Positions 1 through 36,511 of a stretch of DNA of 38,082 nucleotides are shown piece after piece. The notes beneath the pieces are model-generated. The model did no database searches. It saw only the letters and a program-made list of their open reading frames with translations, and had not been told where the DNA came from. Every line of letters begins with the position of its first letter. Within the stretch, counting starts at the first letter, position 1. Source of the DNA: Fidelibacterota bacterium (GTDB lineage Bacteria; Fidelibacterota; Marinisomatia; SCGC-AAA003-L08; TS1B11). The stretch spans positions 417,341 to 455,422 of the forward strand of contig CP070638.1 of NCBI GenBank assembly GCA_020354025.1, in the 5' to 3' direction. The position numbers and the translations under genes are program-made.

Positions 1-248
1 CGAGAGGACCGGAACGAACGAACCGCTAGTGTACCAGTTGTCTCATCAGAGGCACCGCTGGGTAGCTATGTTCGGCAGGGATAAGCGCTGAAAGCATATA
101 AGCACGAAGCCCCCCCCAAGATGAGATTTCCCTCCCCGCCTTCGGGCGGGGCTGAAGGTTCCCTGTAGACGACAGGGTTGATAGGCCACAGGTGTAAGTC
201 CGGTAACGGATTCAGCCGAGTGGTACTAATAAACCGTGAGACTTGAAC
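1..248 (+). rRNA. 23S rRNA, 3' end (partial)
   Basis: This is the 3'-terminal part of the large-subunit rRNA; the rest lies left of the window. The stretch around positions 15-60, with the GTACCAGTTGT and TCATCAGAGGCACCGCTGGGTAGCTA-like blocks, matches the conserved 3' domain. So does the end near 215-247, with ATTCAGCCGAGTGGTACTAA and then the CGTGAGACTTGA tail. The exact 3' end is estimated. A 5S gene follows about 57 bases later, as expected for an rRNA operon read on the plus strand. Long ORFs across this stretch on the minus strand are spurious. Confidence 0.95.
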
Positions 249-305
249 AATCTTTTTCGATTTGATCCAGATCCGTCTGGTACAGCTTTTATTCTCCCTT
301 ACCTT

Positions 306-422
306 TCCGGTGACCATAGCGTAGGGGAAACACCCGATCCCTTTCCGAACTCGGAAGTTAAGCCCTACTGCGCCGATGGTACTGTCCGCCTACGCAGGAC
401 GGGAGAGTAGGTCGTCGCCGGA
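306..422 (+). rRNA. 5S rRNA
   Basis: This 117-base gene begins TCCGGTGACCATAGCG and ends GTCGTCGCCGGA, so its two ends pair as the 5S helix I. The conserved internal block CCGAACTCGGAAGTTAAG is present at about 343-361. It lies 3' of the 23S gene in the same orientation, forming the end of an rRNA operon. The ends are set from the terminal helix and could shift by a base or two. Confidence 0.95.
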
Positions 423-432
423 GCTCTTCTTT

Positions 433-475
433 GAAAGTCCCCTGGAAGCCGCTTTTTCGGGGATTTTCTTTTTTT
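433..475 (+). terminator. Rho-independent terminator of the rRNA operon
   Basis: A ten-base stem (433-442 with 459-468, one G-U pair) closes a loop of about 16 bases and is followed directly by a run of T (469-475). It starts 11 bases after the 5S gene, in the right place to end the rRNA transcript before the FecR operon. Confidence 0.85.
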
Positions 476-635: not shown

Positions 636-1844
636 ATGAAAAATGCGTTTTGTATACTGGTCGCTGTCTTCATGCTCAGCGGCGGCTGGGCTCATGGACA
701 GGTATTGAGGTTGGACGGAACCTTTAGGGACTTTGTTACCTTCTACGTCAGCAGTGTCGATGTTTCCACCGGTGCCACCGACGTAGAACTGTTCGATTAT
801 ACACTCTCATCGGATAGCTATCCCGTGGAAGTCAGCGTTGAATTTAGCGTGCTGATCAATTCAGCTCCGCTGAACCTCGACTACAGCAGACCTTTTCTAC
901 ATGTCACGACTCAATCATTTACTTTGCTGGATGAGGTTCACATCCGGAATACGGATTTGAACATTAACACGGACCACCTGGAATATGTCGACGGAGAGCC
1001 TCTGAGTATCACCGTAAATGATCCGGAGACGATTTTCGATGATCCTGATTTTAATCCTGATGCCATGCAAAGTCTGATCATTCAGTCTGGCCGCTTACCG
1101 GATGGAATCTACCGCCTTGATTTGGTGGTAAATAATCTAACAAATCCGGGGGGATCTGTGAGGAAGGAGGAGTCGATTATCTCCGCCCATCCCATCTCCT
1201 TGGAGCTGATATCTCCGGGCGGGCCATTCGCTGAAATACAGAATCAAACGATCATGACTACCTACCCCTTCTTCCAGTGGCAGTCCGATCCCTGCGCCAT
1301 CTGCAGCTACCGGATTAGGGTGGCCCGGTTTATCCCCAACGAACACAGCTCTGCTGAAGACGCCATCGAGGATCAGACCGTGCTGCCCATCGAACAGGCG
1401 CTTGGTTGGTACCCTGAGCAGGATATGGATGGAAAATTCTTGCCCACTACTTCCTTCCAGTATCCCCAATCTGGTGCCGTTGACCTCGAGCCTGGCAATA
1501 TATACGTATGGCAGGTGCAGAAAATCATTCCTACTACCGAAGGGGATGAATTCATCAACAGTGTGATCTATGCGTTTATGATCGAAGAACAGCAGGCCGG
1601 ATATGACCCGATCAAGGAAGCCGTGCGTACTGTCTTAGGTGATGAGCGCTACGAGCAGCTTTTTGGCGTCGGTGGAGAGCTCATGGGCTTTGTCGGCGAT
1701 GAGGAAAGTCTTTCAATCAGCGGCAGTATCAGTGTTGATGGCACTGAGCTGGAGGCAGGGAATATCGACGTGAGTACACTCCTGCTAATCGCTCGATTAA
1801 TCGAACAAGGAGAAATCTCCGTAGTAGAATCGGAGGTGCAGTAA
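636..1844 (+). CDS. Exported protein of unknown function, first gene of the FecR/CHASE2-cyclase operon
   Basis: I do not recognise a named family. The 402-residue product starts with a clear signal peptide: MKNAF, a hydrophobic core to about residue 17, and a likely cut after AHG. It is therefore secreted or periplasmic. The mature part looks beta-rich. It includes a PFFQWQSD...YRIRVAR segment resembling the fibronectin/Ig-like folds of surface proteins, with two cysteines close together (CAIC), and its C-terminal 80 residues are acidic. The start at 636 is chosen because AGGAGGG (624-630) sits six bases upstream. An ATG three bases earlier and an in-frame ATG at 591 are possible but place the ribosome site badly. 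Its stop overlaps the next gene's ATG by one base (TAATG), so the two are probably translationally coupled. A role in presenting or sensing an envelope signal is inference from context only. Confidence 0.75.
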   Translation: MKNAFCILVAVFMLSGGWAHGQVLRLDGTFRDFVTFYVSSVDVSTGATDVELFDYTLSSDSYPVEVSVEFSVLINSAPLNLDYSRPFLHVTTQSFTLLDEVHIRNTDLNINTDHLEYVDGEPLSITVNDPETIFDDPDFNPDAMQSLIIQSGRLPDGIYRLDLVVNNLTNPGGSVRKEESIISAHPISLELISPGGPFAEIQNQTIMTTYPFFQWQSDPCAICSYRIRVARFIPNEHSSAEDAIEDQTVLPIEQALGWYPEQDMDGKFLPTTSFQYPQSGAVDLEPGNIYVWQVQKIIPTTEGDEFINSVIYAFMIEEQQAGYDPIKEAVRTVLGDERYEQLFGVGGELMGFVGDEESLSISGSISVDGTELEAGNIDVSTLLLIARLIEQGEISVVESEVQ

Positions 1845-2773
1845 TGAAACGTTTAGCCTTTTTACTGGTATTCATTTCTGTATCCCTGGTCTGGGGTGCA
1901 GAAAAGATTGCATTTACTACCAAAGTCAGCGGCCAGGTTAACCTGGTGAATCTACAAGAACAGACGGTGCCGCTGAAACGCGGAACGGTTGTGAATAGCG
2001 GTGAGCAGATTGTTACCCTCACCGATGGCTTGGCTGTTATCATGTTCATTGATGACAAGAGCCTCCTGCGGATTCAGAAAAACACAACCCTCACCGTTGG
2101 CGGCGAGCGTTCGGCAACCGCCATATCAAAACAGGTTGACATGCAGTTCGGCAAGCTCAGGGCACAGGTTACCGAGCAGCGCCAAGAAGGTGCGTTCGTG
2201 ATCTCCACGCCCACCTCCGTGGCGTCGGTGAAAGGGACCGATTTCTGGGCCACCTCTGACCCGGTCCTGGGTGATATCTTTTTGGGGATAGACGGACTCA
2301 TCGAGGTGGAGAACCTGATCAGCGGTGGAGTCATCGAAGTCGGCGGCGGTCAGATGGGCACTTCAGAGCCGGATGGAACTACTGCGGTGGCGACCTACGT
2401 GCTCATCGTGAGTGAGCTTCTGAGCGTCTCGGAGAATGTGCTGACAATGGAACCGGCCGAGATCGGTGAAGGTGATGCGCGCATGCAGTTTAACGGGCAG
2501 GTAGCCTTGACTTCTCAGACTACTTACGCCGGTCCTGATCCTGAAGTTGGCAGTACTGCAACCATCTCCGGCATCGCTAACGATGACGGCTCGGTTACTG
2601 CCGTCCAGGTCGCAATTGAAGAAATCGAAGAAGAGCTCGAAGAAATCGAAGATAAAGGCCCGGATGAAGGCGAAGGTGAAGGTGAAGGTGCTGAAGCCGA
2701 AGAAGCAGAGCTGCGGATAAGGTTTGTAAATCAAGACGGCACGACTAAAGAGCTCGTTATTATTTATAAATAA
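1844..2773 (+). CDS. FecR-domain exported protein
   Basis: This is a 309-residue secreted protein with a signal peptide (MKRLAFLLVFISVSLVWGA, cut near residue 18). Residues of about 25-165 form a FecR domain: LKRGTVVNSGEQ, a hydrophobic DGLAVIMF strand, then GKLRAQV and the hallmark STPTSVASVKGTDFW. In iron-uptake systems FecR passes a signal between an outer-membrane receptor and a sigma factor. The wider family also occurs next to CHASE2 proteins with no sigma factor, as here. After the FecR domain comes a beta-rich segment, then an acidic low-complexity stretch (about 258-291, many Glu, a GEGEGEGEG run) and a short C-terminal strand. The GGAGGTG at 1832-1838 is the ribosome site. It lies in an operon with the unknown exported protein, the beta-barrel gene and the cyclase. 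The acidic repeat could bind cations, which is inferred only. Confidence 0.88.
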   Translation: MKRLAFLLVFISVSLVWGAEKIAFTTKVSGQVNLVNLQEQTVPLKRGTVVNSGEQIVTLTDGLAVIMFIDDKSLLRIQKNTTLTVGGERSATAISKQVDMQFGKLRAQVTEQRQEGAFVISTPTSVASVKGTDFWATSDPVLGDIFLGIDGLIEVENLISGGVIEVGGGQMGTSEPDGTTAVATYVLIVSELLSVSENVLTMEPAEIGEGDARMQFNGQVALTSQTTYAGPDPEVGSTATISGIANDDGSVTAVQVAIEEIEEELEEIEDKGPDEGEGEGEGAEAEEAELRIRFVNQDGTTKELVIIYK

Positions 2774-2827
2774 GCCAAATCCGAATTAACTTTTAGTTTG
2801 ATCTATAACACCGGAGGTGAACGGAAG

Positions 2828-5635
2828 GTGACTATTCGAGTCTACAGTATTGCGTATGGACTTTTGCTGCTGGCAGGGGGGCTATCGGCCAGCAGTTTTG
2901 CTGACGGGACTATCTACCATCAAGCACCGGTAGAAGCCGTTGCGCTGGAACCACTCACACTGGAAGCCGTGATTGAGGTGACGGATGCCGCCGTGGCATC
3001 GGCCAGCATATACTACCGCCCCCGAGGCCAGGAAACTTACCAGGAAGTTCCCATGTCATCAGCGGCCGGGAATCTCTTTTTCGGTACCATTCCCGCCGCT
3101 GAAATCACGGAGCTGGGGTTGGAATATTACCTGGTCGCCTTGCTGGATGATGAAAGTGTCCTGGCATACCCGGTCGATGATCCTGAGGTCAATCCGGTGT
3201 TTGTTACGATAAAGTCGGCTGCAGAAGGGATCGCTTATACACCGGAGACCCAGGAGGTCGCAGCAGACCTCCAAGAGGTCGATGTATTGATCCTTTCCCC
3301 CGAACCCGGCGATATGTATCTCCCCGATGATGTGGTGATAGCCGTTTCCTTCTTTAACGTCCAGGATTTGGATGTTTCATCCATCCGACTCCTGGTCGAC
3401 AGGCAGGATGTAACCACCCAGGCGGATGTGACCGCTGACCTGGTCACCTACACTCCTCCGGCTCTAAGGACAGGAGCCCATCAAGTTGAACTCCAACTGA
3501 ATCGCAGCTCCGGTTCGGCGTACGAGCCGGTGGCCTGGCGGTTCCTGGTTACCCAGAAAGCAGCCGTAACCACCGAACAGGCCTTTAGACAATCTGGCTC
3601 CATCACCCCGACCTACCGACGGGATGATATTGATGAAGAGCTGCTTGAGGTAAGCAGTATGAGGCTGTCTTACCGCGGCGGATGGGATTGGTTGCGATTC
3701 CGCGCCAACATGAAGCTCACCAGTGAGCAGGATCCCTACAAGCCCCATCGAAACCGCTTCTCCGCCAGCTTCAGCACACCGCTGCTGACGCTGGGTATCG
3801 GCGACGTTACCCCGCGGCTCGATCGCTTCAGCCTGGATGGCAAGCGGTTGAGGGGTTACGACGCCAACTTCACCCTGGGAATCGTCAACCTGCGGGTGGC
3901 GAAGGGGGAGCTGGAGCGAGGCATCCAGGGCCGGCCTGATGCGTCTGTCAAGGTTACCGATCATAATCTTGACACTGACAGTCTCACCGTTTCGCGCGCG
4001 GGCTATGCCTTTCGGCGCGACATCCTGGCTGTCCGGCCCAGCTTCGGATCTGGACAGCGCTTTGAGCTGGCATTCTCGCTTATAAAGGCCAAGGATAATA
4101 TTGCCTCGGTGAATCGATTTGTTGATGATGGCATTGTTCAAATTGACAGTAGCGTTGCGTGGAACTCAGACTGGATTGACAATTCCACCCGCACAATCAC
4201 CTATCGGGACCTGGACAACCTTGTCGGCTCAAAAATTCGGGTCCCTGAGAAAGACTGGGAAGGGAAGTCACCCCAGGATAATGTGGTGATCGGATCCAGC
4301 CTCACTTTCGCCTTGAACCAGCGCCGGTTCGTGGTTCAGTCAGGGTTCGCTCTGAGCATGCTAAACAAGAATATATGGGATCCGGTATTGAGCAAGAAGG
4401 AGCTGGATACCTTTGCGCCCGGTGATGATACAGCCGATGGCTTTATTGGCGGCGAAGGCGGTATCGCCGTTGAGGATTTGCCCATTGATCCAGGCGAACT
4501 TGAGGACTACTTCCATATCAATCTGAACCAAGTCCCCCTGCTACCCATCGCCATCGACTCGGCCAGTTTCGCTAGTCCCTTGAAGCTGATCGCAAATATG
4601 CCCTCCCTGGCCTATCATGCCACTGCCAAGTTCAACTACCTGCGCAACTTCATCACCCTGGAGTACCAACAGGTAGGTCCCGAGTTCAACTCCCTGGCCA
4701 ATCCTAACCTGCAGAAAAACGTGCGTGTACGTTCCATCTCCGACCGCATCCGTCTTTTCGAGAGCAGACTCTTCATCTCAGCCCTTTACCGGGCCACGGA
4801 CGATAACATCGTTAAAGTGGAAGACGAGCCCATCACTTCTACGAAAATGATCAATCTCAGTGCCAACCTCAACCTGGGCCGGGGGCTGCCCTCCCTCGTT
4901 CTGGGGCGGAGAACCTATGAGCGCAACAATGGCATTGATACCGCGAGTGCCGATCTCGGAATTTCTGACCGTCGCGAGCATGCTATTACCAAGTCACAGA
5001 ACCTGGGCCTCAGCTACCGGCTGCAGATGTTGACATCCACGCACGACCTGAACTTGAACCTGGCTGCTACGGATATCAGCGACAACCTGAAGGACGATCG
5101 ACGTGTGGGCGATACTCTCTTCGTGGCACAATCGGCCGCCTCAAATGTTTTCTCCCTGACGGCTGTTTCCAGGTTCCCGAACGGGCTGGAGACCAACGTT
5201 GTCGTCTCCACCAATAATACGGAGATCAGCGGAGGAAAGAAGCCAATCATTCAGGACATCACAAGCCTGGACCTCATGGCTCGTCTGCCGCTGCTGAAGG
5301 GGAAGCTGCGGGCCAGGGGCGGAGTTACGTTCAGGAGCAATAAGACCAACCAGGATGAAAATCCAGATGCACCGGCGTCTTTCACCCGGTTCGGTATCAA
5401 TGGCGGAGCAAGTTTTCAGCTGGTTGAGAACCTGCGGCTGGTGGGCCTTTTTAAGCTTTGGAGCAAGACGCTTACTAATCAGACCGAACCGTTTGTTGAT
5501 CTTGATGGGGATGGTATCTGGAGCGAAGAAGAATCGTATACTGACCGCAACGGTAACGGCGTCTATGATGAAGGGCCTTTCGATCTGACGCTTCCCAGTA
5601 CTGTCATTTCCACCACCCTGGAATATACATTCTAG
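2828..5635 (+). CDS. Large predicted outer-membrane beta-barrel protein with periplasmic Ig-like N-terminal half
   Basis: The product is 935 residues with a signal peptide ending near SASSFA-DG. I do not recognise a named family. The first ~260 residues read as two soluble beta-sandwich domains: one with a YYRPRGQETYQEVPM pattern, the next with an ILSPEPGDMYLPDDVVIAVSF pattern seen in Ig-like domains. From about residue 265 the sequence shows alternating polar/hydrophobic strands with frequent aromatic caps and ends LEYTF. A terminal Phe is typical of barrels inserted by BamA. Near the C-terminus (about 891-915) are two calcium-loop-like motifs, DLDGDGIWSEEE and DRNGNGVYDEG. The GTG at 2828 is chosen as start because GGAGG lies at 2813-2817 and a signal peptide follows at once. 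A longer TTG start at 2798 has no ribosome site. A role as the outer-membrane partner of the FecR protein and the downstream cyclase is inferred from context. Confidence 0.8.
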   Translation: MTIRVYSIAYGLLLLAGGLSASSFADGTIYHQAPVEAVALEPLTLEAVIEVTDAAVASASIYYRPRGQETYQEVPMSSAAGNLFFGTIPAAEITELGLEYYLVALLDDESVLAYPVDDPEVNPVFVTIKSAAEGIAYTPETQEVAADLQEVDVLILSPEPGDMYLPDDVVIAVSFFNVQDLDVSSIRLLVDRQDVTTQADVTADLVTYTPPALRTGAHQVELQLNRSSGSAYEPVAWRFLVTQKAAVTTEQAFRQSGSITPTYRRDDIDEELLEVSSMRLSYRGGWDWLRFRANMKLTSEQDPYKPHRNRFSASFSTPLLTLGIGDVTPRLDRFSLDGKRLRGYDANFTLGIVNLRVAKGELERGIQGRPDASVKVTDHNLDTDSLTVSRAGYAFRRDILAVRPSFGSGQRFELAFSLIKAKDNIASVNRFVDDGIVQIDSSVAWNSDWIDNSTRTITYRDLDNLVGSKIRVPEKDWEGKSPQDNVVIGSSLTFALNQRRFVVQSGFALSMLNKNIWDPVLSKKELDTFAPGDDTADGFIGGEGGIAVEDLPIDPGELEDYFHINLNQVPLLPIAIDSASFASPLKLIANMPSLAYHATAKFNYLRNFITLEYQQVGPEFNSLANPNLQKNVRVRSISDRIRLFESRLFISALYRATDDNIVKVEDEPITSTKMINLSANLNLGRGLPSLVLGRRTYERNNGIDTASADLGISDRREHAITKSQNLGLSYRLQMLTSTHDLNLNLAATDISDNLKDDRRVGDTLFVAQSAASNVFSLTAVSRFPNGLETNVVVSTNNTEISGGKKPIIQDITSLDLMARLPLLKGKLRARGGVTFRSNKTNQDENPDAPASFTRFGINGGASFQLVENLRLVGLFKLWSKTLTNQTEPFVDLDGDGIWSEEESYTDRNGNGVYDEGPFDLTLPSTVISTTLEYTF

Positions 5636-5648
5636 CCTCGCTTTCAAT

Positions 5649-8090
5649 TTGAACCTGAAAAAACTCATCTCAACCTACGGCGCCGGTCTTATATGGACCG
5701 GCGTTTCTATTATCCTGGTTGCCGCCCTCTACTACCTGGGATTATTCGACCTGCTGAATTATAAAGTGCTGGACTTTTCCTACACCCGTGTCAGAGGGCC
5801 CCTGGCCGGCCTGAGTGCCCGCCAGCCAATCTCACGTGACAGTCTGAAAGTCGTGCTGGTAGACGTTGATGACGAATCGTGGCGGCTGGTGCCCTACAAG
5901 TGGCCCTATCCCCGCGACGACATTTGGGCCCGGGTGGTACGTAACCTGACCGACGCTGGTTCCCGGGTAATCGTCTTTGATGTCGAGTTTGATAGCCCCG
6001 ACTTCAAGTCAGATTACCTTGAGAAGTTGAACCAGGCCGGCAGCGACATCCCGTTCCAACATGGCGACGAAGTGTTTGCCGATGCTATCAGGTATGCCCA
6101 ATCCAAGGGTACCCGCATTGTGTTGGCCTCTAAGCTGGTCAACGAACCCACCCGGCTACCGCCGGATTATATCATGTACCCCGTCACGCGCATAATGGAC
6201 TCAGATCCTGAGCCGGGATTGATTAACGAAATCAAGGATAGTGACGGCATCACTCGTAAATATTCACTCGCTTATGAGTTGTCCAGTGAGCCGGGCACCT
6301 GGTACCTACCGCTGGGAATTAAAGCTCTGAAGGAGTACTGGGGTCTCCATGACACAACGCTGCTGCAGCCCAGATGGGAAACGAACGAGATGATCTACGG
6401 CCCCGCCGTTATCAAAACTTATGGCAAGTCTGCCAGTTTCATTGTGAATTTCTATGGTCCCCCCTCCGGCACCTCCCTGCCAGGCGAGGACCCGTGGAAA
6501 ACTTTCGACCGCTTTCCCCTCGCAAATATCATTGACGACGCCGATTTCGACCTCCGCTTCATCGAAGAGGACTCCGATTGGATGGACTTTTTCAAGCTCA
6601 ACAGCGACCTGTACGGTATTGTCGGCGAAAGCCCCTTCCTGGACAAGATCGTCCTCATCGGTGTATCCGTGAACGTACTCCTCGACGTCAAGACCACCCC
6701 CTATTATAATTATGCCGGTATGCAACAGCTGATGCCGGGAGTTGAGTACCACGCTAACGCCGTTCAGACCCTTCTCGATGGTAACTACATCAATGTGGCT
6801 GGCAGTACCCTGGAGCTCACCAAGGAATCTCTGGGCACCAACCTCCTGATCATCGCCCTGCTTGCCCTGTTCACCTATATCTTCATCCAGCGCCTCTCTC
6901 CGGTTCTGGGGGGCCTGGTAGCCTTCTTTGAGGTTCTGGTCTTCTTAAATATTGCTCTGGGGTATTTTACACAGGACTATCTGTGGCTTCCGAAATTCAT
7001 CGCTATTCACGTCATGATGTGGATCGGGATTGAGTCTATTCCGGCACTGTTTACTATAGGAACGCCGGAAATAGGTGCTTCTATGTTTGTGCCGGTGGTC
7101 CCCGGGATGGCATCCGTCGTGCTGACCTATGGTAGTATCGTACTTTATCGCTTCCTGATGGAGCAGAAGGATAAACGGTTCCTCAAGCATACCTTTGGCA
7201 CCTACGTATCCCCGGAGCTCATCGACCAGATGTACGAAACCAAGCAGATGCCCGAGCTGGGCGGCGAATCCGGCGTTCGCACCGCGTACTTCACCGACAT
7301 CGCCAGCTTCTCGGCCTTCTCGGAGATCCTCTCCGCATCCAAGCTGGTGGAGCTGCTGAACGAATACCTCACCGCCATGACCGATACCCTCCTGGAGTAT
7401 CAGGGGACCCTGGACAAATATGAGGGCGACGCCATTGTGGCGTTCTTCGGTGCGCCCATTTACTTTGATGACCACGCCTACCGGGCCTGCCTGGTAGCGC
7501 TACAGATGCAGGAGAAGCTGGCCGAGCTGCGGGAGAAATGGGCTTCGGAAGAAGACAAGTGGCCCGATCTGGTGCACTTGATGCGCATGCGTATCGGCAT
7601 CAATACCGGCGAGATTGTTACCGGGAACATGGGCAGCCGGACACGAATGAACTATACTATGATGGGGGACGTGGTCAACACCGCCGCTCGCCTGGAGGCC
7701 TCGGCCAAACAATACGGCATTTATATCCAGACTACCATGCCCACCCTGGAGCTGGCCGGCAAAGACAAATTCGAGTGGCGTAATATTGACAAGGTGAAGG
7801 TCATGGGAAAGCAGGAAGCAGTGGAAGCGGTGGAGATTATGGCCCTCAAGGGACAGCTACCTGACGAGCAGCTGAAGATGAAAAGCACCTATGATGAAGG
7901 AATGGAACTGTACTGGAAGCAAGAATGGGATGCCGGGATGGCAAAGTTCAAGGCTTCCGAGGCAATGGAGGAAGTCTTTCCCAAGCGGCCCACCACTCCC
8001 AGCAAAGTCTACCTCGAGCGTTGCGAATATTTCAAGGCTAATCCCCCAGGGCCCGACTGGGACGGTTCCTGGACCCTTACCGCCAAGTGA
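5649..8090 (+). CDS. CHASE2-domain class III adenylate/guanylate cyclase
   Basis: This 813-residue membrane enzyme makes a cyclic nucleotide, probably cAMP. It has an N-terminal helix (about 12-32), a periplasmic CHASE2 sensor (about 36-390, with VVLVDVDDESW and a GSRVIVFDVEFDSPD block), then four membrane helices (about 396-503) and a cytoplasmic class III cyclase domain (about 540-720). Catalytic residues are visible: metal-binding Asp550 in YFTDIASF and Asp594 in KYEGDAIVAFFG, purine-contacting Lys590 and Asp674, and Asn677 and Arg681 in GDVVNTAARLE. Lys plus Asp in the base-binding positions favours ATP over GTP. About 90 residues follow the cyclase domain. The start is a TTG 13 bases after the previous stop; no clear ribosome site is seen and the next Met is far inside CHASE2, so coupled translation is likely. 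CHASE2 is an extracytoplasmic sensor domain, so the operon's exported proteins may supply its signal. Confidence 0.93.
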   Translation: MNLKKLISTYGAGLIWTGVSIILVAALYYLGLFDLLNYKVLDFSYTRVRGPLAGLSARQPISRDSLKVVLVDVDDESWRLVPYKWPYPRDDIWARVVRNLTDAGSRVIVFDVEFDSPDFKSDYLEKLNQAGSDIPFQHGDEVFADAIRYAQSKGTRIVLASKLVNEPTRLPPDYIMYPVTRIMDSDPEPGLINEIKDSDGITRKYSLAYELSSEPGTWYLPLGIKALKEYWGLHDTTLLQPRWETNEMIYGPAVIKTYGKSASFIVNFYGPPSGTSLPGEDPWKTFDRFPLANIIDDADFDLRFIEEDSDWMDFFKLNSDLYGIVGESPFLDKIVLIGVSVNVLLDVKTTPYYNYAGMQQLMPGVEYHANAVQTLLDGNYINVAGSTLELTKESLGTNLLIIALLALFTYIFIQRLSPVLGGLVAFFEVLVFLNIALGYFTQDYLWLPKFIAIHVMMWIGIESIPALFTIGTPEIGASMFVPVVPGMASVVLTYGSIVLYRFLMEQKDKRFLKHTFGTYVSPELIDQMYETKQMPELGGESGVRTAYFTDIASFSAFSEILSASKLVELLNEYLTAMTDTLLEYQGTLDKYEGDAIVAFFGAPIYFDDHAYRACLVALQMQEKLAELREKWASEEDKWPDLVHLMRMRIGINTGEIVTGNMGSRTRMNYTMMGDVVNTAARLEASAKQYGIYIQTTMPTLELAGKDKFEWRNIDKVKVMGKQEAVEAVEIMALKGQLPDEQLKMKSTYDEGMELYWKQEWDAGMAKFKASEAMEEVFPKRPTTPSKVYLERCEYFKANPPGPDWDGSWTLTAK

Positions 8091-10440: not shown

Positions 10441-11154
10441 TTATTTAACCGGACGCTCTCCAAATAAGGCCCGCCCGATGCGCACGTGGGTGGCTCCCTC
10501 CTCAATAGCTAGCTCGAAGTCATCAGTCATGCCCATAGATAAATCGGTACAGGTGGGCAACTGCGCCTGAAGGGCATCCCGCACCTCCCGTGCAGTACGG
10601 AAGCAGTCCCGCAGGCGCCGCTCGTCACTGGTGAGGGGCGCAATGGTCATTACGCCAGCGATAAGCAAGTGCTGGACGTCAGCCACTTCAGGTAATACTT
10701 TAAGTAGCCCATCGGGGTCAAATCCGAACTTTGCCTCGTCGTGGCCAGCGTTCACCTGGAGGTAGACTGGCAGCTCCTTGCCAGCTTCCCCCGCCAGCCG
10801 ATCAACGCGCCGCAGGAGCTTCATAGTATCAATGGACTCAATGAGGTCAAACAGATCCACGGCCGTTTTGGCCTTGTTGGACTGTAGGTGACCAATCAGG
10901 CGCACTTCACACTCTGATCGTTGGGGAAACTGTGGCAGCTTGGCGACGGCTTCCTGCACCCGGCTCTCGCCGAAGACACGTAGACCGCCTTCATAGCCGG
11001 AAATCAATGTCTCCAGCGGAAAGGCCTTGGTAACAGCGACGAGGTTGACTTCCGGCGCGGCGTTGGGGCTGCGAGAACGAGCAGCAACGATCCGGGCCTG
11101 GATGTCTGCAAAGGCCTTGGGATCTAGCTTGCCTGGTCGGGAAGCTGAATGCAT
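10441..11154 (-). CDS. YggS/PLPBP-family pyridoxal-phosphate homeostasis protein
   Basis: The 237-residue product is a single-domain PLP-binding TIM-barrel protein of the YggS/PROSC family, which keeps free PLP and amino-acid pools balanced rather than catalysing a known reaction. The PLP lysine is Lys43 in LVAVTKAFP. Other family marks are IGHLQSNK, GVMTIAP, and the C-terminal LSMGMTDDFELAIEEGATHVRIG...FG block that holds the phosphate. Length is normal. It follows the gyrA terminator, so it likely has its own promoter, and it precedes the CPBP protease gene by 19 bases. Confidence 0.93.
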   Translation of the reverse strand: MHSASRPGKLDPKAFADIQARIVAARSRSPNAAPEVNLVAVTKAFPLETLISGYEGGLRVFGESRVQEAVAKLPQFPQRSECEVRLIGHLQSNKAKTAVDLFDLIESIDTMKLLRRVDRLAGEAGKELPVYLQVNAGHDEAKFGFDPDGLLKVLPEVADVQHLLIAGVMTIAPLTSDERRLRDCFRTAREVRDALQAQLPTCTDLSMGMTDDFELAIEEGATHVRIGRALFGERPVK

Positions 11155-11315: not shown

Positions 11316-13835
11316 TTATGCAATCCCAGGCTCGACTGGCTGCGGCTCTGTGCTCCCCTCTTCACTACCATTCTCTTCATCGTCCTCGATCACCCGGGAG
11401 ATGGACGCAATGCGCGATCCTTCGTCCAGACGGATAACCCGCACCCCCTGGGTAGCTCGCCCGATAGTGCGGATATCCTGGACCGGCAAACGGATCATGA
11501 CCCCCTTATCGGTGACAATCATCAGATCGTCGGTATCAACAACCTCCATGAGGGACACCATCGGGCCAACCTTCTCGGTAGTCCTCAAGGTAATGACTCC
11601 TTTTCCGCCCCGGTGTTGGACACGGTATTGCATCACGTCGGTGCGCTTACCATATCCGTTCTCGGTTACAACCAGGACCGTCCCTTCCCGGCGGACCACC
11701 ATCATACCCACCACGTAGTCGTCTGAAACAGTCTGTCCCGCCTCTGGTGAGGCCAGCCTGACGCCCACGACACCCCTGGTCTTGCGGCCGGTCGGACGGA
11801 CATCGCTCTCATGGAAGCGGATCGCCTTGCCCCTGCGGGTGCCCAGGATAATGTCGTTATCACCAAGAGAGATCTTAGCCTCGATCAGCTCGTCGCCTTC
11901 CTGGATATCTATGGCATAAATGCCCTTGCGTCGTGGATTACCGTAAGCGGAAAGGGCGGTGCGCTTGATCAGACCTTGCTTGGTGGCCATGACAATGTAC
12001 TGGTCATCGGGGAAGTCCCGCACGGCTACGAAGGCTCGTACCTTTTCGCCTGATTCGCATTCGATGAGATTTATTATGGCCCGACCCCGGGAAAGGCGCC
12101 CCGCCTGGGGTATCTCGTGAACCTTGCGCCAGTAGCACTTGCCCCTATCAGTGAAGAAAAGGATGTAATCATGGCTGGTGGCAATAAAAAGGTGCTCAAC
12201 GAAATCATCTTCACGGGTTGTAGCGCCCTGGATACCGCGCCCGCCGCGCCGCTGACGGCGCCATTGACTGCTCGGTGAACGCTTGATGAATCCGTTATGG
12301 CTGATGGTGATCACCATATCCTCATCAGCGATCATGTCCTCAACAGAAAAATCGGACTCAGCATGGATTATCTCCGTTCGACGATCATCGCCGTAGCGCC
12401 CACGGATCTCCTCCAGCTCCTCCTTGATTATGGCCATGCGGAGAGCACGGTTAGATAATATATTCTTGAGCTTCTCAATCAGCTTGATGGTCTCACGGTA
12501 TTCGACTACGACTTTATCTACCTCCATTGAAGTGAGCCGTTGTAGCCGCATATCCAGGATGGCCTGAGCCTGGCGTTTGGATAGCTTGAAAGCTTTCATC
12601 AATCCTTTGCGGGCCTCGTGCTGGTCGGCCGACCCCCGAATCAATTTGATAATCGCATCGATATTGTCCAGGGCGATCTTAAGGCCCTCCAGAATATGGG
12701 CTCGATCCTCCGCCTGTCGCAGCTCGTACTGGGTACGGCGAAGTACAACATCGTGGCGAAATTCAATAAAATGGGTCAGTAGCTGCTTAAGGTTCAGAAC
12801 CTTGGGCTGGCCGTTAACCAGCGCCAGCAGGATAATACCGTAGGTATCCTGGAGCTGGGTATACTTATAGAGGTTATTAAGAACCACTTCGGGAACCGCA
12901 TCGCGCTTCACCTCGATCACCAGGCGAATACCGTCCTTGTCCGATTCGTCCCTGACATCTCTGATGCCTTCCAGCTTTTTCGCTCGTACCAGCTCGGCGA
13001 TGCGCTCAATGATCAATGACTTATTGGTCTGGTAGGGTATTTCCGTGATAACAATCTGCTCGCGGTCGCTGCGGACTTCCTCTACCGACGCCCGGGCCCT
13101 GATAGTCAATTTGCCCCGACCCGTTGTGTAGGCTTCCCGAATACCTTCGCCACCCAATATGTAAGCGCCGGTCGGGAAATCCGGGCCGGTTACGGCCGAC
13201 ATGAGATCAATAATGGAAAAATCGGTGTTGTCAAGGTTATCGATCAGGATAATCAGGCCATTGACGATCTCCTTGAGATTGTGGGGTGGTATCTTGGTAG
13301 CCATGCCCACTGCAATGCCGTCAGATCCGTTGACCAGCAGGCTGGGAACCATGGTGGGAAGGACTGACGGCTCCTTGAGTGTATCATCAAAATTGGCAAC
13401 GAAATCAACGGTTTCCTTGTCCAGATCACGCAGGAGCTCGGCGGAAATGCGACTCATGCGGGCTTCGGTGTATCTCATGGCCGCCGCACTGTCACCGTCG
13501 ATCGAGCCGAAATTGCCCTGGCCATCCACCAGAGGATAGCGCAGGGACCACGGTTGGGCTAGACGCACTAGGGTGTCATAGACCGAGGCGTCGCCATGAG
13601 GGTGATACTTGCCCAGAACATCGCCGACGATACGGGCGCATTTCTTGTAAGGCCGATTGAAAGCTACTCCCAGCTCCGACATGCCATATAGCACCCTGCG
13701 ATGAACCGGCTTTAGCCCATCGCGCACGTCCGGCAGCGCGCGGCTGACTATCACCGACATGGAGTAGTTGAGATATGACTCGGATATCTCTTCAACTATT
13801 TCGCGAGGTTCCGTTTTCCCCCGTACTACGTCCAC
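11316..13835 (-). CDS. gyrA: DNA gyrase subunit A
   Basis: Gyrase A breaks and rejoins DNA so that the GyrB ATPase can drive negative supercoiling. The 839-residue protein has the winged-helix/tower breakage core with catalytic Tyr122 in [11 protein letters not shown], and a six-bladed C-terminal domain. The GyrA box QRRGGRG (528-534) is present and separates gyrase from topoisomerase IV. The protein ends in an acidic tail of about 25 residues. In the quinolone-contact region the E. coli numbering carries over exactly: position 83 is Ala instead of Ser, 84 is Ser and Asp87 is kept. The start is a GTG at 13835, with AAGGGAT upstream as a plausible ribosome site, and the [13 protein letters not shown] start fits the family. 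It lies 71 bases after gyrB on the same strand. Confidence 0.97.
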
Positions 13836-30286: not shown

Positions 30287-32575
30287 TCATGGATTCTCGG
30301 CAACTAGCTGTTGGAACCGCGAGTGCTCCCGTAGCGGATCCCACACCCGGTGAAACCGAAGGTCACTAACTCTTGCACCAGCGGGCATCTTCACCAGCTT
30401 TTCTAACAGGTCGATCGCAGCCTCGTATTCACCCACAATAGTATAGATCTCAGCCAGGTGTTGAACATAATCTGGCCCAGCTGTTGCATCCATGGAGACA
30501 GGCAGCGAATCGACGGCTTTCCGGCCTTCCCGGATCGCTTCATTCGTCAACCCAAGGTGGGCATATACCTTGCCTAACGCGGCGTGAATCCTTTCGTGGT
30601 TTGGACTTTCACGCACCTTTTCCTCCAGCAGCGCGCGGGCTTTCTCAAAATGCAAGTCCGCTTCTGCCGGTTCACCCATCAGCTTGAGAATCCAACCGAC
30701 GTAAAATTCTTTCGGCATGAACACTACCGGATCTTCTCGCACATCTTCTGGGATGGCAGTCAGTCGTTCAAGGGCATCATCATAACGGTCGTCTTCAATA
30801 TCAAACTCAACCAATGTCCACATAAGATGGAGTGGATCGGCAAGCCGCATCCCTTCCGCCAGGACCTGTCGGGCGCTTTCTGTATCGCCCGATATGTCTA
30901 CCTGCAGCCATGCCTTGGCGAGATACGGAGCCACATAGTCTGGGGCCAATACTATCGCCCGGTCATAAGCCTGTTCCGCCAGGTCGTCCAAACGCAATAT
31001 CCTGTAGGTACCGCCCAGTTCCAAAATAAGCCGGGCGGACCGGGGATCATATTCCTGTGCGGTCTTCTGATTGGCCAATGCCTCTTCAAACCTGCCCAGG
31101 CGGCGCTGTACATAGGCGATGTTTTCGGCGTGTAATCCATTTCCCGGCTCCAGTCTCTGGGCAAAAAAGAACTGTTCCAGGGCTCTGGTATGATCCCGCA
31201 AACCATAATAATAGTAATAGCCATTGCCCATGCGTACCACCGGATCATCGGGCTTGATGCTCAAGGCCTGGTCAACGGCCTCCCTGGCCGTAGCTAGGCG
31301 TTGGTTGGTGCGATCATATCCGCGCCAGTACATGTATGAGTGGATGCGGCCAAGACGTGCATATGCCTGGGCGAAGCGCGGATCGATCTCTACGGCCTTT
31401 TTATATAGATCGCTGGCGATTTCCAGGGTTTTTCTCTCCCAGCCCTTTTGATCGTATTCATAGGCCCGCAGGTAAAGGTCGTAGGCGGTTGTTGATTCGG
31501 TGGGTAGTTGTTCGATGCGCTGCCTTTCCTCGGGGGAGAGCATGGTTTCCAATGCGGCGGCGATGTTCCGGGCTACGTCGCTCTGTATTAAAAAAATATC
31601 GGTTAGGTCACGGTCATAGGTCTCGGCCCAGAGGTGTTGGTCCGTCCGGGCATCGATGAGCTGGCCGGTGATCCGCACCTTGTCCCCGGCTCGACGGACG
31701 GTCCCTTCCAGGATGTTGGGAACACCCAACTCATTAGCTATAATCCTCAGGGATTTTGGAGAATCCTTGTAAAGCATAGCCGAAGTCCGTGAGATCACTT
31801 TTAGGTCGCCGATCTTTGTCAGATGGGTGATAATATCATCGGTCACTCCATCACTGAAGTACTCATCCTCCTTGCTGTCACTGAGGTTGGCAAAGGGCAG
31901 CACCGCGACGGACTTGGGACCCAGTAAAGGTTCCGGGAGGGCTTCCTTGCCAAAACCAAGCCACCAGACCACCACAGCTATGATGGCCACCCCTGCCGCT
32001 GTTCCCGTCCATGTCCACCAGCGGCGGCCTAGCGGCCGGATAGTGGCCCGCACTTGCTCTACCAGGGGTGCTCTGATCTCTGATACGGCATAGACCTTGA
32101 TAGGGTGATCCACTCCCTTGAGCTTTTTCTCTCCCAGGAGCGTAGCCTCTATGCCCCGCTTGTTGCGGATCGCCTCATAAACCTGCTCGGAAACACAGAC
32201 GCTACCCGGTTCGGCCAACGGCTCAATCCGTGAGGCCACGTTCACCCCATCCCCGAAGACGTCACCATCTTCAAATACCACGTCGCCGATGTGGATACCG
32301 ATACGTAGGCTCAGGTTGGGATCACTTTGGAGGATATGCTGGATCTCCAGCGCGCAGTTGACCGCTTCCACGGCGCTGGCAAAGCTCGAAAGCGTGCCGT
32401 CGCCCATCTCTTTAAGCCACTCGCCGCGGAACTGCTCGATAACCGGCTTTAGCAGCGCCCGGTTCTTTTTAAGAAGCTCAAGCGCCTTCTCCTCGTCCTG
32501 GGACATCATCGCCGTATAGCCCACGATATCAGTGAACATTATGGCGGCCAGTTTTCTCTGTGGGACTACAGCCAT
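30287..32575 (-). CDS. Class III adenylate/guanylate cyclase with single membrane helix, TolB-like domain and TPRs
   Basis: The 762-residue protein has a cytoplasmic cyclase domain at the N-terminus (about 7-165) with metal Asp16 in IMFTDIVGYTAM and Asp59 in EMGDGTLSSF. Lys55, Asp109, Asn112 and Arg116 in FGDGVNVASRIE are the base-binding and transition-state residues. One membrane helix follows (about 188-206). Next is a TolB-like/FlgO-like domain of the COG5616 type (about 220-345, KSVAVLPFANLSDSKEDEYF through HLWAETYDRDLTDIF), then about ten TPR-like helical pairs to the end. With the cyclase inside, the TolB-like/TPR part would be periplasmic and could be the sensor. ATG 32575 is chosen; a GTG at 32584 overlaps the stop of a 32-codon upstream ORF (GTGA) and is also plausible. 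Confidence 0.93.
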   Translation of the reverse strand: MAVVPQRKLAAIMFTDIVGYTAMMSQDEEKALELLKKNRALLKPVIEQFRGEWLKEMGDGTLSSFASAVEAVNCALEIQHILQSDPNLSLRIGIHIGDVVFEDGDVFGDGVNVASRIEPLAEPGSVCVSEQVYEAIRNKRGIEATLLGEKKLKGVDHPIKVYAVSEIRAPLVEQVRATIRPLGRRWWTWTGTAAGVAIIAVVVWWLGFGKEALPEPLLGPKSVAVLPFANLSDSKEDEYFSDGVTDDIITHLTKIGDLKVISRTSAMLYKDSPKSLRIIANELGVPNILEGTVRRAGDKVRITGQLIDARTDQHLWAETYDRDLTDIFLIQSDVARNIAAALETMLSPEERQRIEQLPTESTTAYDLYLRAYEYDQKGWERKTLEIASDLYKKAVEIDPRFAQAYARLGRIHSYMYWRGYDRTNQRLATAREAVDQALSIKPDDPVVRMGNGYYYYYGLRDHTRALEQFFFAQRLEPGNGLHAENIAYVQRRLGRFEEALANQKTAQEYDPRSARLILELGGTYRILRLDDLAEQAYDRAIVLAPDYVAPYLAKAWLQVDISGDTESARQVLAEGMRLADPLHLMWTLVEFDIEDDRYDDALERLTAIPEDVREDPVVFMPKEFYVGWILKLMGEPAEADLHFEKARALLEEKVRESPNHERIHAALGKVYAHLGLTNEAIREGRKAVDSLPVSMDATAGPDYVQHLAEIYTIVGEYEAAIDLLEKLVKMPAGARVSDLRFHRVWDPLREHSRFQQLVAENP

Positions 32576-32580
32576 ACTGG

Positions 32581-32679
32581 TCACTCGTGGAACACCCGGC
32601 GGCGACCTGCCCCGCCATCGGCGGGGTTGAGCTCGGCGAGGAAGGCTGCGAGTCTGGAAGGAGGATCACTCATGGTCAT
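32581..32679 (-). pseudogene. Fossil or leader ORF: truncated N-terminus of the TolB/TPR paralogue family
   Basis: Thirty-two codons read MTMSDPPSRLAAFLAELN, seven inserted residues PADGGAG-like, then RRRVFHE and stop. Apart from the insert this is the N-terminus of the neighbouring paralogue (MMPDPPSRLAAFIAELKRRRVFRVA), and the DNA matches too. The membrane helices that should follow are missing. Its TGA overlaps a GTG that can start the cyclase gene. It is probably the remnant left when a cyclase domain replaced the membrane module. It might still act as a translated leader that couples to the cyclase. Confidence 0.75.
32610..32626. repeat. Small GC palindrome inserted in the fossil leader
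   Basis: CCCCGCC (32610-32616) and GGCGGGG (32620-32626) form a perfect seven-base stem with a three-base loop. It sits inside a net 21-base, in-frame insertion relative to the paralogue's DNA, between the GAGCTCAA and CGCCGCCGGGTGTTC blocks on the minus strand. Confidence 0.6.
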
Positions 32680-32766: not shown

Positions 32767-32823
32767 CCCCCTCCCTTTAAAAGGGAGGGGGCGACGCGAA
32801 GTGTCGGGGGCGGGTTTTTTCCC
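32767..32823. repeat. REP-like double hairpin at the 3' end of the TPR paralogue
   Basis: CCCCCTCCCTTT (32767-32778) pairs perfectly with AAAGGGAGGGGG (32780-32791). It is followed by a second small stem, CGACGC/GTGTCG, around GAA (32792-32806), then GGGGGCGGGTTTTTT. The element touches the stop of the first TPR paralogue. The T-run lies on the plus strand, so it is not a normal terminator for minus-strand genes, though the stem could protect the mRNA 3' end. It looks like an intergenic palindromic repeat of the REP/BIME type. Other copies would have to be found elsewhere in the genome. Confidence 0.55.
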
Positions 32824-34664
32824 TACCGAATCCTCTGGCCATGTTCATCGAATACTTCCGTCAGGCCCATTTTCTGGATTAGTGCCTTGAACCGGGGCTC
32901 TGCGCGGAGGAAGTCAAATCCCTGACCATACACGAGCCCTGTAGGGTAATATGACTCTTTGGTGGTATCTTCATAGGCCTTTTCCAGCAGGCTGAGGACC
33001 TTATCCCTCTCGCCCATGATGGCATAAAGACGGGCAGACCAGAATGGATGCTCCTGCTCCCGCTGCTGCAGCTCCCCGGTGGACCTCAGCGAATCACGAA
33101 CTGCGTATACTTTCTCCCGGTTTCCAAGGGCCCACTCGGCCCGCTGCCACAACCAGAAATAAAACGTACTATCCGCCCCGTTAGTGGCTTCCGCGTACGC
33201 TTTTCCCGCCTCGTCGGCGGCTTCCGCGTATCGGCCCTGCTGCATGGCGATTTCATGCTTTGTCAAAGCTAGAAAGTAGGGCGCAGCCATATGGTTGGGA
33301 GCAAGCTCTAAAACGGCCTGCCAGTATTCCAGGGCTTTATCATACTGGCGGGTGTCACGATAAACCTCGCCGATACCCGTCAGGGGCAGAGGATTAAGGG
33401 GATCCAACTCCTGGGCCCGCCGATACTCTTCCAGGCCTTCTTCAGGCCGGCCGGTGCGGCGCAAAAACTCGCCGTATTCGAAGCGGGCATAGACATTATT
33501 GGGATCCAGCTCCAGCGCCCGCCTGAAAGACGCTTCTGCCCCGGGAATGTCATATTTCCGAAGATACTGGTAAATCCCCAGACCCGCATGGGCTTCCGCC
33601 TGGTTGGAATCCAGCTCCAGGGCTTTATCCAACGCCTGTTTCATCCGATTATAGGCATAATCCACACTCCAACCGCCCAACCATTGCATCTGAAGGTAGC
33701 TATGGCCCAAAGCCGCCCAGGCCCGGGCGAAGGTGGGGTTCAGCGCTACGGCCTGCTCCAGGTATTCCACGGCCTTGGGCATGCTCTCTTCACTCTCCAG
33801 CTTACGGAAATGCCACCCCTTGAGATACAGGTTATAGGCCTCGGGATTCACCTGCGGGGCGCTGGCCAGGTCCGCTTCCTCCTCCGGCTTCAGGGCCAGC
33901 CCGATCTCTCCGGCAATAGCCCCGGCAATGGTCTTCTGCAGGGACAGAATGTCGGTCAGGTCCCCCTCGTAGTCGTTGGACCACAGGTGCTCATCGGAGG
34001 CGCCGTGGATCAGCTGCGCCGTGATGCGCACCCGGTCCCCGGCCTTCAGGACCGATCCCTCCACCAGTGCGTCCACATTGAGCTCGCGGGCTATCTCCGG
34101 CATCAGTTTATCGGTATCCTTGTAGCGCATCGCCGAAGTGCGGGAGATCACCTTCAATACACTGAGGCGGTTCAGGTTGGTAATGATAGCGTCGTGCATT
34201 CCCTCCACGAAATAGTCCTCGGCTGGGTCGCCCATCTGGTTGTCCAGCGGTAGGACAGCGATGGAGCTGATGGCGACACCGCCCGGTGAAGGCTCCCTGA
34301 GCCACGACCAGATTCCGAAAGCAATTGCCAGAACGGCGATAGCGGCCAGGGCTTTGTTGCCTACCAGGGGATGGTGCGGGACTTTGGCAGCGGTGGGTTC
34401 CCGCTTGGGCTTGGTCCGCACCAGTCCCTGCTCGGTAATATCAAACGCCCAGGCCAGGGCTACGGCGATGGGGAAGCCGATGAGAAGCAGGACGATGATG
34501 GTGGTTCCTACCCAATCAGGGATATGGAGCGGCTCGAAAATAGCGTCAATGATCTGGAAGACTATAAACGCTACGCCAGCATAGACTATTGCCACCCGGA
34601 ACACCCGGCGGCGTTTGAGCTCGGCGATAAAAGCGGCTAGCCTGGAAGGAGGATCAGGCATCAT
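32823..34664 (-). CDS. TolB-like/TPR membrane protein, paralogue 1
   Basis: The 613-residue protein opens with PPSRLAAFIAELKRRRVFRVA. Two membrane helices follow (about 22-42 and 52-72), then a basic cytoplasmic loop (LVRTKPKREP) and a third helix (about 105-122). Next come a TolB-like COG5616 domain (about 132-255, SIAVLPLDNQMGDPAEDYFVEGM through HLWSNDYEGDLTDI) and TPRs to the end. It closes with PLRAEPRFKAL-like and GLTEVFDEHGQRIR motifs shared with the other two paralogues. Positive-inside charge places the TolB/TPR part in the periplasm. There is no cyclase or other catalytic domain. The start at 34664 lies ten bases after the previous gene's stop; a second ATG follows at once. The function is unknown. 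The TolB-like domain and TPRs suggest binding of peptides or proteins. Confidence 0.88.
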   Translation of the reverse strand: MMPDPPSRLAAFIAELKRRRVFRVAIVYAGVAFIVFQIIDAIFEPLHIPDWVGTTIIVLLLIGFPIAVALAWAFDITEQGLVRTKPKREPTAAKVPHHPLVGNKALAAIAVLAIAFGIWSWLREPSPGGVAISSIAVLPLDNQMGDPAEDYFVEGMHDAIITNLNRLSVLKVISRTSAMRYKDTDKLMPEIARELNVDALVEGSVLKAGDRVRITAQLIHGASDEHLWSNDYEGDLTDILSLQKTIAGAIAGEIGLALKPEEEADLASAPQVNPEAYNLYLKGWHFRKLESEESMPKAVEYLEQAVALNPTFARAWAALGHSYLQMQWLGGWSVDYAYNRMKQALDKALELDSNQAEAHAGLGIYQYLRKYDIPGAEASFRRALELDPNNVYARFEYGEFLRRTGRPEEGLEEYRRAQELDPLNPLPLTGIGEVYRDTRQYDKALEYWQAVLELAPNHMAAPYFLALTKHEIAMQQGRYAEAADEAGKAYAEATNGADSTFYFWLWQRAEWALGNREKVYAVRDSLRSTGELQQREQEHPFWSARLYAIMGERDKVLSLLEKAYEDTTKESYYPTGLVYGQGFDFLRAEPRFKALIQKMGLTEVFDEHGQRIR

Positions 34665-34674
34665 CTTAGCCCGC

Positions 34675-36501: not shown

Positions 36502-36511
36502 CCTAACTCTC

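Follow-up and report, generated by a model that had tools for sequence, protein, structure and literature searches.

The window analysed here is a stretch of 38,082 nucleotides from a bacterium of the Fidelibacterota, a marine group that has received little study (GenBank assembly GCA_020354025.1, contig CP070638.1), in which four same-strand genes, g1 to g4, occupy positions 636 to 8090 and code for an exported protein with immunoglobulin (Ig)-like domains, an exported FecR-domain protein, an outer-membrane β-barrel protein and an inner-membrane CHASE2 cyclase, respectively (Table 1). We consider here whether this quartet constitutes a signalling system spanning the cell envelope. The genes g1 and g2 overlap by 1 base, and gaps of 54 and 13 bases separate g2 from g3 and g3 from g4. 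A mechanical open reading frame (ORF) call begins g3 at TTG 2798 (945-amino acid (aa) ORF); we placed its start at GTG 2828, which has GGAGGT upstream and is the same start position as in congeners. With this start, the positions, overlap and gaps given in a preliminary description of this DNA were all correct on re-reading.

Table 1. Features of the g1-g4 locus and its upstream neighbours (window coordinates).
Feature	Positions	Strand	Description and evidence
g1	636..1844	+	Exported protein, 402 aa; Ig-like β-sandwich domains; no named family
g2	1844..2773	+	Exported FecR-domain protein, 309 aa; signal peptide and Pfam FecR (37 bits)
g3	2828..5635	+	Outer-membrane β-barrel protein, 935 aa; GTG start; AlphaFold model, predicted local distance difference test (pLDDT) 74
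g4	5649..8090	+	Adenylate cyclase of class IIIb with CHASE2, inner membrane; 813 aa; TTG start; Pfam
FecR domain of g2 (aa 55-136)	2006..2251	+	Pfam FecR 37 bits, cut-off 24
First Ig-like domain of g3 (aa 24-131)	2897..3220	+	PPAD Ig domain 5ak8: Z 15.0, root mean square deviation 2.1, 105 aligned
Second Ig-like region of g3 (aa about 152-241)	3281..3550	+	Model strands; sub-threshold Big_7 at 163-231 of the 945-aa ORF
β-barrel of g3 (aa 252-935)	3581..5632	+	About 26-28 strands; AlphaFold model, structure alignment
CHASE2 domain of g4 (aa 21-404)	5709..6860	+	Pfam CHASE2 118 bits
Cyclase catalytic domain of g4 (aa 545-724)	7281..7820	+	Pfam Guanylate_cyc 85 bits; alignment to CyaB 3r5g and CyaC 1wc1
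23S rRNA 3′ end	1..250	+	Upstream neighbour, conserved synteny; Rfam LSU_rRNA_bacteria
5S rRNA	306..423	+	Upstream neighbour; Rfam 5S
Terminator-like hairpin between 5S rRNA and g1	440..462	+	Consensus scan only

Linkage of the four genes was assessed in 60 related genomes, 56 of them from other genera. The barrel gene g3 was found in 44 of these genomes, CHASE2 and FecR in 45 each, and g1 in 39. At the 49 barrel loci (44/60 genomes), FecR lies upstream in 48 and g1 upstream in 40, while a CHASE2 cyclase gene adjoins downstream in 40, contrary to the possibility, raised in the preliminary description, that homologues of the barrel and FecR genes usually lack the cyclase. All three partners are present at 35 loci. 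Among the nine barrel loci without CHASE2, two lie at contig ends (G034, G046), four carry weak distant paralogues (G012:C51, G019:C45, G030, G038), and the remaining three are cyclase-less paralogue copies (G049:C14, G057:C33 and G054:C114, the last near a contig end). The four-gene linkage exceeds chance and is not local to the window. Spacing in the relatives is operon-like, with distances of at most 60 bases for g1-g2 in 36/36 cases, for g2-g3 in 34/39 and for g3-g4 in 36/39.

The association also holds when viewed from the cyclase. Out of 68 CHASE2 loci, 61 are tied to FecR: 39 have both the barrel and FecR upstream, and in 22 the CHASE2 gene directly follows FecR. One locus (G006) has the barrel without FecR; the remaining six lack both, and at least one of these six is at a contig end. 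The genome that contains the window itself carries a second FecR and CHASE2 cyclase pair (L033 6913-10093; C1, about 2.824 Mb), preceded by genes for a TPR-SLH protein and an LPP20 lipoprotein, an order that recurs in family f1. We refer to loci of this kind (L033 and L105-L114) as type 2. A Peptidase_C25 protein encoded after the L033 cyclase was considered as a second link to secretion and dropped, L033 being the only one of the 11 type-2 loci with a downstream PorU-like phmmer match; L114 has a weak upstream PorU-like match (1.4e-9).

Beyond these genomes, the quartet was present in 14/14 loci retrieved for other classes, which were chosen from the listed g3 matches in the phylum and not at random. 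The named g3 relatives (14 loci) belong to Candidatus Neomarinimicrobiota or Marinimicrobia, and one record is labelled FCB group; Candidatus Neomarinimicrobiota is the phylum reported to have been given the name Fidelibacterota (PMC11652737). Among 245 genomes from the phylum, 167 had a g3 match at an E-value of 1e-10, representing 72 of 84 genera, and a search of a plasmid collection with g3 gave no match. The locus seems ancient in the whole phylum. In one congener (G002) the cluster has been relocated and lies near a gene for a Crp-like regulator, with g1 not found there (L057 6148-6825, equivalent to L076 2420-3097).

In one protein, g4 combines CHASE2 with a class III cyclase domain and additional hydrophobic segments. 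In class IIIb cyclases, two aspartates bind metal, a lysine and a threonine recognize the base, and an asparagine and an arginine stabilize the transition state. All six residues are kept in g4 (D550, K590, D594, T670, N677 and R681) when aligned with CyaB (3r5g) and CyaC (1wc1), and the same D-K-D-T-N-R set occurs in 40/40 g4-type proteins readable at all six places (a 41st is cut and masked), as well as in 11/11 type-2 cyclases. The preliminary description had entertained an inactive cyclase domain, a possibility that the intact residues do not bear out. Four proteins of the genome bind cyclic nucleotides (cNMP) according to their domains, and one of them is Crp-like, with cNMP and HTH_Crp domains. 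A longer g4 cyclase, of about 1,080-1,130 aa, occurs in several genomes of families f3 and f5 (L036, L042, L043, L086 and others).

Both g1 and g2 begin with a signal peptide, called from a hydrophobic stretch in the N-terminal sequence rather than by a dedicated predictor. In g2 the FecR domain follows the signal peptide directly and there is no cytoplasmic anti-sigma part, and therefore the protein could act only in the periplasm. Alignment of g1 homologues revealed a conserved cysteine pair (C220/C223). As the preliminary description had stated, neither g1 nor g3 belongs to a family that can be named: g1 has no Pfam match, and g3 has only a sub-threshold Ig match in Pfam, with no match to FecR or TPR. 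The AlphaFold model of g1 is weak (pLDDT 69) and its fold of low confidence, the fold search returning only generic Ig-like sandwiches with low TM-scores. Profiles of g1 and g3 gave only weak matches against PDB sequences (best 0.015).

The best structural neighbour of g3 is the MtrB barrel (6r2q_B: Z 19.9, 466 aligned, 5.7 Å, VIA-align), and its residues 24-131 match the Ig domain of the Porphyromonas gingivalis peptidylarginine deiminase (PPAD). A fold shared with MtrB or PPAD says nothing on function. This first Ig-like domain would be periplasmic. No TonB-receptor or plug/signalling family matched g3 in Pfam or NCBIfam; TonB receptors appear in the g3 fold search among many barrels, which does not decide kinship. 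The query region at about 34-136, which covers the first Ig-like domain, also has weak matches to short stretches of other proteins in several genomes, one of them in the same genome as the window (C1:1688843-1689151).

We consider it probable, judging from gene content and comparative genomics, that g1-g4 form one operon for a signalling path that crosses the envelope and has cyclic AMP (cAMP) as its output. In this path, whose physical contacts, direction and nucleotide product we infer, g3 would be a surface receptor, anchored by its barrel in the outer membrane and reaching into the periplasm with its N-terminal Ig-like domains. The fully exported FecR protein g2 and the exported Ig-like protein g1 would bridge the barrel and the CHASE2 domain that g4 exposes in the periplasm. 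Changes in the barrel would then alter the contact between FecR and CHASE2 and rearrange the g4 dimer, whose cytoplasmic class IIIb domain would make cAMP to be read by Crp-like proteins encoded elsewhere. A relay from the barrel or FecR through CHASE2 to cAMP had been put forward in the preliminary description, and comparative genomics, through the conserved linkage and catalytic residues, lends it good support; the novelty implied there does not stand (see below).

Barrel genes that lack the cyclase offer a natural control for this path. Twenty loci of the phylum were fetched for the comparison, nearly all because of a short barrel. Fifteen carry the barrel with FecR and/or g1 and no cyclase alongside; of the other five, four are linked to a cyclase but truncated at contig ends or split, and one stops before the presence of a cyclase could be judged. 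Leaving L165-L170 outside the barrel counts, the first Ig-like domain is present in 53/53 complete cyclase-linked barrels, five more appearing short through contig ends, masking or a split frame, and is absent from 14/16 cyclase-less barrels, with one more cyclase-less case at an edge. A tree of 75 barrels places the 17 without a cyclase (the edge case among them) in a single group (Shimodaira-Hasegawa-like approximate likelihood ratio test, SH-aLRT, 85) that falls inside the cyclase-linked barrels by midpoint rooting, and the two that keep the first Ig-like domain are sister to the 15 that do not. The simplest history would be one duplication away from the cyclase followed by loss of the first Ig-like domain. 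The correlation suggests that this domain serves the link to the cyclase, although it is biased, most cyclase-less loci having been picked for their short barrels, and the single clade represents one or two events. At two cyclase-less trios (L133 and L134, on the same contigs as L067 and L068), a gene about 290 bases downstream codes for a protein of 129 aa that matches the PorX profile weakly; this protein is probably a lone receiver domain and possibly another output.

Several observations weigh against a dedicated path from g1 to g4. One paralogous clade (17 rows) has the g1-FecR-barrel trio and no cyclase, so the trio has some use of its own. The genome codes for seven cyclase-domain proteins, so cAMP is not specific to the g1-g4 locus. 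No sequence kinship could be detected between the g3 barrel and the presumed NsrA of Sinorhizobium meliloti, a known partner of a CHASE2 cyclase (hhalign probability 0.1, one NsrA sequence only). Finally, the whole neighbourhood is conserved too, so the linkage may in part be plain synteny. The usual order in relatives is rRNA operon-g1-g2-g3-g4-PorX-TsaE-TsaB. In 29/40 barrel-cyclase loci, window included, a same-strand 5S rRNA gene is the immediate upstream neighbour; of the 11 others, six have no 5S rRNA (at least 330 bases available) and five break off too soon for a call. PorX, a response regulator whose PglZ domain is of the phosphodiesterase type, is encoded downstream in 31 of the 49 barrel loci, at a distance from g4 of at most 60 bases in 19 of these 31, and in 12 of the 14 loci from other classes.

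An alternative that follows from this is that the block is an old neighbourhood inherited vertically without a shared path, the trio serving the envelope in some way (export, assembly or transport, for example) and the cyclase responding to an input of its own. The extent of the conserved region, which reaches far beyond the quartet, and the existence of the cyclase-less trio both speak for it. Yet the genes overlap, and FecR is tied to CHASE2 at the type-2 loci, whose neighbours are quite different, and in other phyla. The quartet also stays together without PorX in the window itself, where the PorX junction is the only part of the usual block to be missing: in this genome PorX-TsaE-TsaB lies about 780 kb off (PorX at C1:1203712). 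In families f22 and f23 the quartet is found together at other sites, with neither rRNA nor PorX detected alongside (L165, on the single contig of G062, L167, L168 and L169, whose g4 is cut by a contig end). That the quartet persists as a unit where the old neighbourhood is gone argues for joint function over mere synteny, and we regard inheritance alone as rather unlikely. Two further barrel loci in these families have no cyclase alongside (L166 and L170); in L166 (6655-10469, G062) a distant second FecR and barrel pair follows a gene for a 1555-aa protein with a g1 profile match.

A second alternative extends the circuit to PorX: the envelope signal would set cAMP, and PorX would read or degrade a nucleotide signal and tune type IX secretion. 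Its frequent and close position after g4 is in line with this, as is the reported hydrolysis of cyclic and linear oligoadenylates by PorX (PMC11320123). Against it, PorX is encoded elsewhere in the window's genome and is not beside the quartet in L165, L167 and L168, and we found no account of PorX acting on 3′,5′-cAMP. Type IX secretion was discarded as a discriminating partner of the quartet: SprA is encoded in 58/60 genomes, including those without the quartet, so its presence does not track the quartet. We judge this extended circuit improbable. Classical FecR action on an unlinked extracytoplasmic function (ECF) sigma factor, with the cyclase as a bystander, is the role from which FecR domains are best known and is most improbable here, given that g2 starts with a signal peptide and lacks a cytoplasmic anti-sigma region, that g3 matches neither TonB receptors nor plugs, and that, in agreement with the preliminary description, a Pfam scan of 19 window proteins found no sigma-factor family (the YggS-like ORF at 10441-11154 and the GyrA-like ORF at 11316-13835 lay outside the scan).

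A broader and more speculative proposal, which we consider doubtful though conceivable, joins two ideas. FecR would serve CHASE2 receptors in general as their periplasmic adaptor, and the ancestral rRNA-g1-FecR-barrel-cyclase-PorX block would be a core circuit of Fidelibacterota, in which the barrel reports envelope state or external macromolecules (for example cell-wall fragments) to cAMP, PorX connects the circuit with type IX secretion and with nucleotide signals, and the first Ig-like domain docks on the FecR-CHASE2 relay.

A threonine synthase gene lies 264 bases downstream of g4. Terminator-like sites in the window number 12 in total versus a shuffle mean of 7.9, which is little excess. 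Positions 8295-37969 hold housekeeping genes of the replication-origin type (a gyrA-like ORF, gyrB, dnaN, mfd, mnmG, mnmE and yidC), and another cyclase-domain protein, rich in TPRs, is encoded on the reverse strand at 30287-32584, adjoining three TPR proteins at 32823-37969.

Surface signalling by FecIRA likewise involves an outer-membrane barrel and a FecR domain. The Fidelibacterota locus differs from it in that no sigma factor was found among the scanned window proteins, g2 has no anti-sigma domain and g3 matches no TonB-dependent receptor family. Much closer is the system of S. meliloti, in which the outer-membrane barrel protein NsrA and CyaK are both reported to be required for cAMP signalling (PMC7529298); CyaK, like CyaD1 and CyaD2, is a CHASE2 cyclase (PMC13001267), and its output is read by a Crp-type regulator (PMC7529298, PMC13001267). 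On pSymB of strain AK21 (L045, unannotated), the stop of a gene for a 1224-aa protein, in which FecR, TPRs and a weak barrel match are recognized, overlaps by one base the start of a gene for a 649-aa CHASE2 cyclase. From order, size and domains, we presume these to be NsrA and CyaK, whose genes are reported to be adjacent. The presumed pair has in common with the g1-g4 locus that a barrel and a FecR domain are encoded just before a class III cyclase with CHASE2, and g4 aligns with the presumed CyaK at 35% across 249 residues from the cyclase part, along with pieces of CHASE2. Unlike NsrA, which unites FecR, TPRs and barrel in one protein, the Fidelibacterota locus has FecR and barrel in separate genes, no TPR, and the extra exported Ig-like protein g1; at the base-reading position, the presumed CyaK has serine and g4 threonine.

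FecR and CHASE2 are associated in other lineages as well. In Campylobacterota, a CHASE2 cyclase is clustered with a FecR-domain outer-membrane protein, and the authors proposed one pathway (PMC9239204). Those clusters include a phosphodiesterase and a TPR protein, neither of which adjoins the quartet in the window, whereas the Fidelibacterota locus adds g1 and a separate barrel. The Burkholderia BiofilmReg operon places an exported LysM-FecR protein next to a CHASE2 histidine kinase (PMC5192318), so its output is a histidine kinase and response regulator instead of a cyclase, and it has no barrel gene. In Magnetospirillum, mtxA, coding for a signal-peptide protein, precedes a CHASE2 adenylate-cyclase gene (PMC4439547); TPR and Ig-like folds are discussed for it, and neither FecR nor a barrel is mentioned in the passages concerned. 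Among 588 plasmid records with a cyclase match, four were inspected in addition to that of S. meliloti: FecR genes adjoin the cyclase in those from Shinella and Ruegeria, and no FecR is annotated alongside the cyclase in those from Leptospira and Azospirillum.

A route from barrel and FecR through a CHASE2 cyclase to cAMP, whose novelty the preliminary description had implied, is already known from NsrA-CyaK, and the pairing of FecR with CHASE2 recurs with Campylobacterota cyclases and Burkholderia histidine kinases. We found no description of the operon in Fidelibacterota by title or abstract start in the open literature, subscription papers being outside this coverage. What is new is the separation of FecR and barrel into distinct genes, the additional exported partner with Ig-like domains, a barrel in which no kinship with NsrA was detected, and a locus that is phylum-wide. 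NsrA-CyaK is the one case in which genetics shows how a signal passes both membranes and sets the level of a second messenger, and we came across no mechanism for it. Because the parts in Fidelibacterota are encoded by separate genes, are conserved throughout the phylum and come with a cyclase-less trio that mostly lacks one Ig-like domain, the FecR-CHASE2 contact and the putative docking domain are directly testable there.

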